Made by a program: the position numbers and the translations under genes
In this document: positions 25,371 to 27,088 of the stretch, piece after piece
Layout: every line of letters starts with the position of its first letter
Position numbering within the stretch: position 1 is the first letter of the stretch
The notes under the pieces: generated by a model
The model's input: the letters and a program-made list of their open reading frames with translations, nothing else
Database searches by the model: none
What the model was told of the DNA's origin: nothing
Assembly: GCA_002716765.1 (NCBI GenBank)
Contig: PBBY01000003.1
Coordinates: forward strand, 1-47,284
DNA: 47,284 nt
Direction of reading: 5' to 3'
Origin: Candidatus Magasanikiibacteriota bacterium
Lineage (GTDB): Bacteria; Patescibacteriota; Patescibacteriia; Magasanikbacterales; UBA922

Positions 25371-25397
25371 TTAGCACTCATTATATTTGAGTGATAA
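25371..25397 (-). promoter_or_regulatory. CIRCE operator of groESL
   Basis: TTAGCACTC, 9 bp, GAGTGATAA, against the consensus TTAGCACTC-N9-GAGTGCTAA: one mismatch. It lies between the promoter and groES. CIRCE is bound by the heat-shock repressor HrcA, so groESL is probably HrcA-controlled; hrcA itself is not in the window. Confidence 0.93.
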
Positions 25398-25408
25398 TAA
25401 CACCTTAT

Positions 25409-25436
25409 ATTTTACATGAACTAAAATTATTGTCAA
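25409..25436 (-). promoter_or_regulatory. promoter of groESL
   Basis: TTGACA (25431-25436) and TAAAAT (25409-25414) on the minus strand, spaced 16 bp. It sits immediately upstream of the CIRCE element, so HrcA bound there would cover the start site. Confidence 0.7.
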
Positions 25437-25464
25437 GAAATACACTTAAACAAATTATATAATA

Positions 25465-25586
25465 AAAAAGCCCAAAAGCGGTAACACACCCAATATGCCG
25501 TCTACAGGTTGATATCGTGATGCCTGTCGAGAAACACGATATCATATAGCGAACACTTGCGTAATGTTACCACTTTTGTGCTTTTT
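25465..25586. ncRNA. candidate structured small RNA with a possible pseudoknot
   Basis: The outer stem pairs 25465-25485 with 25566-25586: 19 of 21 positions pair, with two single mismatches. Inside it is a 9-bp perfect stem (GATATCGTG 25511-25519 / CACGATATC) with a 15-nt loop. Eight nt just 5' of this stem (TCTACAGG) can pair with CCTGTCGA in the loop, with one mismatch, giving an H-type pseudoknot. Both ends carry A/T runs, so the outer stem could act as a terminator on either strand. On the minus strand there is a TTGACA promoter at 25649. On the plus strand a perfect TATAAT lies just upstream (25458-25463). The strand is undecided. A simple terminator for the O-antigen-ligase-like gene is the alternative, but it would not need this inner structure. 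I do not recognise a known RNA family. Confidence 0.55.
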
Positions 25587-25625
25587 AAAAGATCGTAAAA
25601 TGCCACGTTGTTTATTGTGGTCTAT

Positions 25626-25654
25626 ATTTTGCCATGTATTTTTTTTCTTGTCAA
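25626..25654 (-). promoter_or_regulatory. promoter toward the structured element
   Basis: TTGACA (25649-25654), 17-bp spacer ending TGG, then CAAAAT (25626-25631) on the minus strand. It lies just after the stop of the O-antigen-ligase-like gene and points into the structured element, with a predicted start near 25619. Confidence 0.45.
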
Positions 25655-25666
25655 GTAAGGTACCCC

Positions 25667-27088
25667 CTATTTGCGTGACCTTTTACGAGCAGAAGTGGAT
25701 AAATTGTGGATAACGTGCTCCATGTATTGACCAATAAGTCCAAAATATATTGCACCAAAAACTAAGCCAGAATAAGAAGAAAATAAATAATGATCAAAGA
25801 GAAGTAATACTGCGTACGGGATACATAACAAAACAAAGAACAATGTATATTCGGGATATTTTTTTGGCACACGAGAAAAAAAGTATACTAAAAAGTAACA
25901 CAGAATAAGTAATGCAAGTATTGCACCAAGAAATCCAAGCTCAGCAAATACTAATAATATAGCATTATGAACTGGTTGATACTGCCAACCTGGTGCTCCG
26001 GGACTCATGATCATTGCTGCAACAGTATAATTACCAACACCAACTCCGGTAAGCGGTGCTGCAGAAAATATATGCAGCGACTCGGTGTATCCACTTATTC
26101 TCTCGGAAACCGAACGAAGTTCGTGTGGCGCACTACCTAAAAATCTACTTGCTACTAACGGTTGAAAAAATAATACTAACGCAACAATACCACACACACA
26201 AAAGAGAGAAAAACTAGTAAACTGCTCTGCTTTTTCGGCAAATACTTTGTGAGATTTTGCGGTATAGTACACAAGAAAAAAAGCAATAAATGAAAATACC
26301 CACAAGCCAAACGCAATCCACGCACTTTTGCTAAATGTCACAAAAAGCGCAAAGAGTTGAACACCAACAATAAGATATCGAAACAATGGATCCCACATAC
26401 TTTTTCCTCTTTTTACAGACGAGAAGAATAGAATAGAAATAATAAGAGATAAACATAAAAATCCACCAAGAATATTTGGGTGTGGAAATGTGCCATATGC
26501 ACGCAACCATCTACCAATAGACTCTCCAACAAGTACAGCCGCACCACCTTCCCACGCATGATGTGCACCAACACCCATAAGTGTGGTGCGCCCAACGGAT
26601 TGTGTAAAAAACTGCATTATTCCCAAAGCACCTTGCGTTGTTGCACCAATAATAAACCATATACTCGCCTGATGCCATGACAAAGGACCGAGATAGAGCA
26701 TAAAAAAGACAATACCCGCCGCCATAACCCACAACGCTTGCTGCAATGCCAGTTCTGGATGAATTGCCCAAAGTGCACTAATAAGACAGTACACAATAAA
26801 CGCTCCAACCGCCATGGTAAATGCTCGATCCTTAGTAAAAGAAAATACTATCTTTTTTTTCTTTTTATATAAGTGTAATTTTTCCCAAAACCAAAATAAA
26901 AACAATACACAAGAAAACCATAATATGATTTCTGTAAGATATATTTTCATCGTACCAAATTCCCAAACAAAACCATTTACAATTGGTTGACTATATAACC
27001 AAACAGTTTGCCAAGGAATAAGAAAAAGTAATGCGCACAAACTAATACGTAACAAAGATTCGAGTCGAGAGGATTTTTTGACAGGCAT
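25667..27088 (-). CDS. O-antigen ligase/polymerase-like (Wzy_C) membrane protein
   Basis: 473 aa with about 11-12 hydrophobic segments. The central-to-C-terminal part matches the Wzy_C O-antigen ligase family. RAYGTFPHPNILGGFL is the conserved periplasmic/external loop start, ERISGYTESLHIFSAAPLTGVGVGNY (in two blocks) lies near 330-355, and QPVHNAILLVFAELGFLGA follows with the conserved His. Such proteins polymerise or ligate lipid-linked glycans outside the membrane, so it may complete the glycans begun by the operon at 31864-36674. It lies 27 nt downstream of the nucleotidyltransferase-like gene. The start is ATG 27088. Confidence 0.88.
   Translation of the reverse strand: MPVKKSSRLESLLRISLCALLFLIPWQTVWLYSQPIVNGFVWEFGTMKIYLTEIILWFSCVLFLFWFWEKLHLYKKKKKIVFSFTKDRAFTMAVGAFIVYCLISALWAIHPELALQQALWVMAAGIVFFMLYLGPLSWHQASIWFIIGATTQGALGIMQFFTQSVGRTTLMGVGAHHAWEGGAAVLVGESIGRWLRAYGTFPHPNILGGFLCLSLIISILFFSSVKRGKSMWDPLFRYLIVGVQLFALFVTFSKSAWIAFGLWVFSFIAFFLVYYTAKSHKVFAEKAEQFTSFSLFCVCGIVALVLFFQPLVASRFLGSAPHELRSVSERISGYTESLHIFSAAPLTGVGVGNYTVAAMIMSPGAPGWQYQPVHNAILLVFAELGFLGAILALLILCYFLVYFFSRVPKKYPEYTLFFVLLCIPYAVLLLFDHYLFSSYSGLVFGAIYFGLIGQYMEHVIHNLSTSARKRSRK

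Follow-up and report, generated by a model that had tools for sequence, protein, structure and literature searches.

What is the elaborate inverted repeat that separates an O-antigen ligase gene from groESL in the genome of a Candidatus Magasanikiibacteriota bacterium? It was singled out in a contiguous stretch of 47,284 nucleotides (referred to below as the window) as a structure too intricate for a simple terminator. The answer that emerges is a rod-shaped RNA of ~130 nt, encoded on the minus strand, for which the sequence provides a promoter of its own and an intrinsic terminator. The place first assigned to it is borne out: the upstream neighbour is an O-antigen ligase gene (25667-27088; Wzy_C, PF04932), groES and then groEL lie downstream of the RNA, beyond an operator described below, and the neighbouring genes shown are all on the minus strand.

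Structure of the element

The outer inverted repeat is imperfect (22 nt, 91% complementary) and encloses a perfect hairpin of 10 bp (Table 1); a long outer stem and a perfect inner hairpin had been correctly perceived in the original prediction, and only their sizes (21 positions with 19 pairs, and 9 bp, respectively) need adjusting. Folding of both strands, which had been proposed as a check, finds structure in each: the minus strand folds to -57.7 kcal/mol (z -6.5), a value equalled by none of 200 shuffles and far beyond chance, and the plus strand folds more weakly (-47.2 kcal/mol, z -4.2). The match of the covariance model to the element in its own genome (R1) scores 101.9 bits (E 6.9e-23); a search of that genome for further copies yielded only short, mostly AT-rich chance matches.

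Table 1. Features of the locus (window coordinates)
Feature	Position	Strand	Basis
Rod-shaped small RNA, 45 bp	25460..25589	-	covariance-model match; covariation across 41 homologues
Outer stem, 5' arm	25565..25586	-	repeat; helix 1, 16 of 18 pairs changed on both sides
Outer stem, 3' arm, with T-run (intrinsic terminator)	25465..25486	-	repeat; T-run conserved among homologues
Apical stem, 5' arm	25535..25544	-	perfect hairpin; helix 5 of covariation analysis
Apical stem, 3' arm	25510..25519	-	perfect hairpin; helix 5 of covariation analysis
Apical-loop seed, 5'-GACAGGCAU-3'	25520..25528	-	unchanged in all 41 family homologues and both sister-family copies
Predicted RNA promoter: TTGACA (25654-25649), 17 nt, TG-extended CAAAAT (25631-25626)	25626..25654	-	motif scan; equivalent conserved in homologues
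Separate groESL promoter, TTGACA-16-TAAAAT, downstream of and outside the RNA	25409..25436	-	motif scan
Candidate site AUGCCUGUC, spanning the first three codons (start included) of the O-antigen ligase gene	27080..27088	-	exact match; predicted duplex -16.1 kcal/mol

By the standard of sequence covariation the fold is proven and the structure can be regarded as settled. In a 41-sequence alignment fitted to the model, 94.6% of the cells are paired and 37 of the 45 pairs have changed on both sides; the covariation score of 0.561 falls to 0.245 in shuffles and to 0.121 or less with slid partners (which pair at no more than 47%), and on each of five measures the real alignment surpasses all 500 shuffles. 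A MAFFT alignment made independently of the model leads, through RNAalifold, to a 45-bp rod in which 31 of 45 pairs are compensatory. Three kinds of feature are conserved: the outer terminator stem; an inner segment (helices 2 and 4) that contains C-G and G-C pairs without any variation; and the apical loop. The homologues covary massively and keep the inner hairpin, and the element is, as had been surmised, more than a terminator.

One embellishment of the fold has to be given up. The 8-nt pseudoknot proposed to join the loop to its flank requires CCTGT on the 3' side of the hairpin, and the window and a relative of the same genus (G001) are the only two of the 41 copies that have it and can form the ACAGG:CCTGT pairing; covariation places that flank in helix 4, where its partner is the opposite arm of the rod.

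Distribution and novelty

A first DNA search of relatives produced matches that lay mostly directly upstream of groES. Nineteen homologues were aligned (MAFFT) for RNAalifold and a covariance model was then built, with which the RNA is found in 41 of the 46 genomes belonging to Candidatus Magasanikbacteria, the family of the window, in 31 of its 32 genera, and in 37 of the 39 family genomes that are at least 90% complete. Each genome has a single RNA locus, the weaker matches on the opposite strand being the same palindromic place. The genomes compared are draft assemblies, and in three of these (G007, G038, G042) the RNA was not found although sites of the SIMPL type, introduced below, are present. 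Searching 380 genomes of the phylum with this first model and strict filters found none in other families; a second model, built from all 41 copies and used with laxer filters, detects two divergent copies in the sister family f8 (G066 and G070), both directly before groES. When named genomes were scanned, 13 matches labelled Magasanikbacteria or Patescibacteria group fit the RNA model and the other 14 do not.

Rfam 15 yields no match on the element at either gathering or permissive (E<=10) thresholds, the homologues having been likewise checked, which upholds the early impression that it is not tmRNA, 6S or SRP RNA; nor was an earlier description found in the open-licence literature. The element is the gene for a small RNA not catalogued before, the representative of a new RNA family.

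The apical loop and start codons

What might the invariant loop recognize? The search word was its exact complement, fixed before any context was examined. A first look at four genomes placed several matches on start codons, among them those of the window's own ligase gene and of a YqeY-like gene. The search was made in all 46 family genomes and contexts were analysed for the sites listed, which come from 25 genomes; open reading frames were called by rule (first ATG, at least 100 codons), not taken from annotation, and the same rule was applied to 807 kb of unselected family sequence for the controls. Among the matches listed, 43 of 134 ATGCCTGTC sites outside the element (32%) are the first ATG of an open reading frame of at least 100 codons, and these 43 are spread over 22 genomes and 18 protein clusters. 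The corresponding figures are 777 of 24490 (3.2%) for all 9-mers starting with ATG, 7 of 154 (4.5%) for permutations of the same composition (Fisher p 3e-10 against the loop complement), and 2 of 59 (3.4%) for synonymous 9-mers encoding Met-Pro-Val (Fisher p 2e-6). The excess persists when each protein cluster contributes one site (18/109, p 1e-8) and when the SIMPL cluster is dropped (27/118, p 9e-16). Sites with one mismatch show no enrichment on starts (2/51), and in G001 not one start codon carries an exact site. Where sites lie at genes, they always keep the same register and orientation with respect to the ATG. Targeting of start codons is, at the level of sequence, well supported statistically, and the conserved seed is predicted to be complementary to several unlinked mRNAs near their initiation sites. 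This match between an invariant loop and start codons, the key feature of the element, had no part in the original prediction.

The initiation context of this lineage is itself unusual, with T before the ATG and few Shine-Dalgarno sites: among 629 predicted genes in the control regions, T directly precedes ATG in 76% and Shine-Dalgarno-like motifs are present in ~10% (66 of 629; the figure for the candidate targets is 1 of 43). That T at -1 and the run of A that follows the site (A at +10 included) are general to the lineage, and were rejected as parts of the motif.

The element might still be a protein-binding or housekeeping RNA of the 6S or 4.5S sort, its loop a protein site and the match to start codons a by-product of codon or N-terminal preferences. 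A single copy per genome, a strong promoter, a rod shape and an invariant loop would all suit such an RNA, as would the fact that Rfam finds no SRP RNA in the window genome. The enrichment, however, is confined to the exact complement of the loop and is not seen for synonymous codons or permuted words; 6S-like candidates lie at other loci in G003 and G022, and failure to find an Ffh M domain in the window's own genome makes an SRP role unlikely. A housekeeping function is accordingly judged improbable, if not negligibly so. Much less credence is due to the idea that the shared 9-mer is the DNA site of a transcription factor, overlapping start codons and also occurring inside the element: the 9-mer is certainly identical in the two settings, but in the element it is the loop of a covariation-proven RNA hairpin, and at genes its register and orientation are fixed on an ATG for which a DNA site has no need.

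The predicted transcription unit and its neighbours

The minus-strand TTGACA that had been noticed facing the element is found, and is followed by a TG-extended -10 sequence (Table 1). Transcription is predicted to start near 25619 and to end at the T-run near 25460; with a promoter-to-element gap of 36 nt in the window, the RNA would be ~160 nt long. Taken by itself, this promoter scan does not exceed chance (6 sites found, 4.6 expected). Across the homologues, a -35 sequence of the TTGAC/TTGAT type with 17-18 nt spacing precedes the element in 32 of 41 copies, and in 30 of those 32 the -10 sequence ends 2-21 nt before it, so that transcription would begin close to, or exactly at, the base of the rod; the median promoter score is 11.1, against 5.6 in shuffles. 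The conserved pattern of promoter and T-run terminator points to an independent transcription unit. The perfect TATAAT seen on the plus strand does exist (25458-25463), just beyond the minus-strand terminator; it has no -35 sequence at promoter spacing, is not credited as a promoter, and is probably incidental.

(Two variations upstream of the RNA may be recorded here. A subgroup, L099, L100, L101, L108 and L109, has one more hairpin on the 5' side (CCAACTTT-GGGTTGG type); in G008 and G024, which belong to it, a TTGACA-17-GATACT or -CATAAT promoter was read by eye ~65 nt upstream. In G034 and G040 (L117, L127) a repeat-like inverted sequence, GTCATTCTGAA...GGATGACA, lies directly upstream, at the expected place of the promoter.)

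Is the element perhaps an elaborate intrinsic terminator or 3' untranslated region of the O-antigen ligase operon, and nothing more? A T-run does close it, and most genomes have it 63-430 nt beyond the ligase gene, on the downstream side; but in most genomes a promoter stands between gene and element, the apical stem and loop, for which termination has no use, are the most conserved parts, and in G002 and G011 the ligase homologue and the element are ~1.4 and 2.9 kb apart. Retention of the RNA where groESL is absent from the locus (G022, G017, G016) or lies 2 kb away through insertions (G031, G033) also makes a mere ligase terminator unlikely, and we give this reading very little weight. Least credible of all is a cis-acting leader or thermosensor of groESL. 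The idea comes from the usual position of the element, which in most genomes precedes groES and shares its strand, and synteny contradicts it: between the two lie a terminator and groESL's own promoter, accompanied by a CIRCE-like operator, and an RNA that is kept where groESL is gone or distant is not a groESL leader.

Two observations concern groESL rather than the RNA. The CIRCE-like operator (TTAGCACTC...GAGTGATAA, window ~25373-25399, downstream of the groESL promoter) suggests control of groESL by HrcA. At L102, L107 and L108 (in G022, G017 and G016) groESL is absent from the conserved locus, and a search for groES found none at all in G022 and G017; some Magasanikbacteria may be without a chaperonin.

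A proposed mechanism and its candidate targets

The reading that we prefer, and consider likely, is that of a trans-acting antisense RNA that pairs with the start codons of envelope-protein mRNAs and represses their translation. Transcription, RNA-RNA pairing and repression are what we infer in proposing the following scheme. 1) The RNA would be transcribed from its own σ70-type promoter and ended at the T-run of its outer stem. 2) It would fold into a single long rod whose apical loop displays the fixed seed. 3) The seed would form 9 bp with the start codon and codons 2 and 3 of target mRNAs; the predicted duplex of loop and site has 9-10 bp and -16 to -17 kcal/mol. In the predicted loop, two of the seed's G's have an unpaired probability of about 0.15-0.23, being mostly held in a 2-bp mini-stem that must open before the duplex forms; the first contacts may be made by the 5' half (GACA), which is free, and by the CAU end. 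4) Pairing over the start codon would block initiation on mRNAs that mostly have no Shine-Dalgarno site. Translational repression by small RNAs that pair in the start region is well established, and is to be expected of a duplex over the start codon, inside the 30S footprint; repression is the most likely outcome.

The candidate targets relate mostly to the envelope, and the most consistent of them is a membrane-anchored SIMPL (DUF541) protein (Pfam PF04402), whose cytoplasmic tail varies and which has a single apparent membrane segment: this is the largest cluster, with the site in 16 of the 25 genomes listed. In these 16 the 9-mer is intact and positions +10 to +60 average 47% identity, a comparison for which the 9-mer served as selection criterion, so that its strength lies in the number of genera that carry the site; the SIMPL proteins having been located through the 9-mer, up to 9 of the 25 genomes could hold one without it. 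Next comes a lysine-rich membrane protein (7 genomes), followed by a DUF6938 protein with a weak match to MGDG synthase (4), a pilin-like N-methyl protein (2), FtsW/RodA, a GalU-type NTP transferase and the O-antigen ligase. The ligase mRNA would be a target in the window genome; as a universal target, an idea prompted by its place next to the RNA, it was rejected, only the window copy starting with the site and its orthologues not doing so.

If this scheme is correct, cell-surface functions (SIMPL, ligase, pilin-like protein, FtsW) would come under the control of one RNA in bacteria that are thought to depend on contact with a host and whose mRNAs dispense with Shine-Dalgarno sites. One can go further and imagine an order-wide regulatory RNA of the Patescibacteria, a fixed 9-nt reader of start codons whose regulon genes join by acquiring AUG-CCU-GUC at their start and which governs the proteins of the cell surface; this extension is tentative, its chances a little short of even. 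An RNA that almost all genomes of this gene-poor lineage have kept, with a regulon defined by nine bases, would illustrate how ultra-small bacteria that have few regulators can control their surface. Start codons are all that is needed to write down the target list, which makes it a directly testable prediction. For the Candidate Phyla Radiation, the open-licence literature yielded no earlier report of a trans-acting small RNA whose regulon had been predicted.

Comparison with known RNAs

Judged by its sequence features, the RNA has the defining properties of a trans-acting antisense small RNA, the experimental ones excepted. With 6S RNA (RF00013) it has in common a long rod-like hairpin, a single copy and, as predicted here, an independent transcript; it is not 6S RNA, since RF00013 has no match in the window genome and 6S-like candidates occupy separate loci (G003, G022, G018). 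(Two of these, G003:C2:449-546 (L058) and G022:C7:49599-49748 (L059), score about 36-38 bits against a cut-off of 46.4; sub-threshold but convincing, they suggest that the family has a divergent 6S RNA.) Bacterial SRP RNA (RF00169, RF01854) is a rod of similar length, and is rejected in turn: neither family matches, and in the window's own genome (G000, 89.7% complete) Rfam finds no SRP RNA and the Ffh M domain (PF02978) was not found. RF00169 gave no above-cutoff match in 20 relatives, controls being detected; the group may have lost SRP or have a strongly diverged one.

The seeds of RsaE/RoxS are C-rich and aimed at Shine-Dalgarno sequences, whereas the seed described here complements AUGCCUGUC and its RNA has no Rfam match to them. 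RsaE/RoxS and other loop-seed RNAs of the Firmicutes form a conserved family with targets common across species (PMC4409812, PMC5419742). In that respect, conservation of the family together with shared (here candidate) targets, the Magasanikbacterial RNA resembles them.

Among the closest known systems are also MicA, RybB and the RyhB-sodB pair, enterobacterial trans-acting RNAs that repress mRNAs of envelope proteins and pair at or near the start codon; an RNA chaperone (Hfq, ProQ) is common, if not universal, for RNAs of this kind. Shared features are a promoter and intrinsic terminator of the RNA's own and pairing in the initiation region (all predicted here), a short conserved seed, and envelope-related (here candidate) targets. 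There is no sequence relation, and the designs diverge: the enterobacterial seeds are free 5' ends or linkers, and the Magasanikbacterial seed is the invariant apical loop of a long rod that would read the start codon itself, in a lineage poor in Shine-Dalgarno sites. A loop seed of this predicted kind, one that reads start codons, is unusual.
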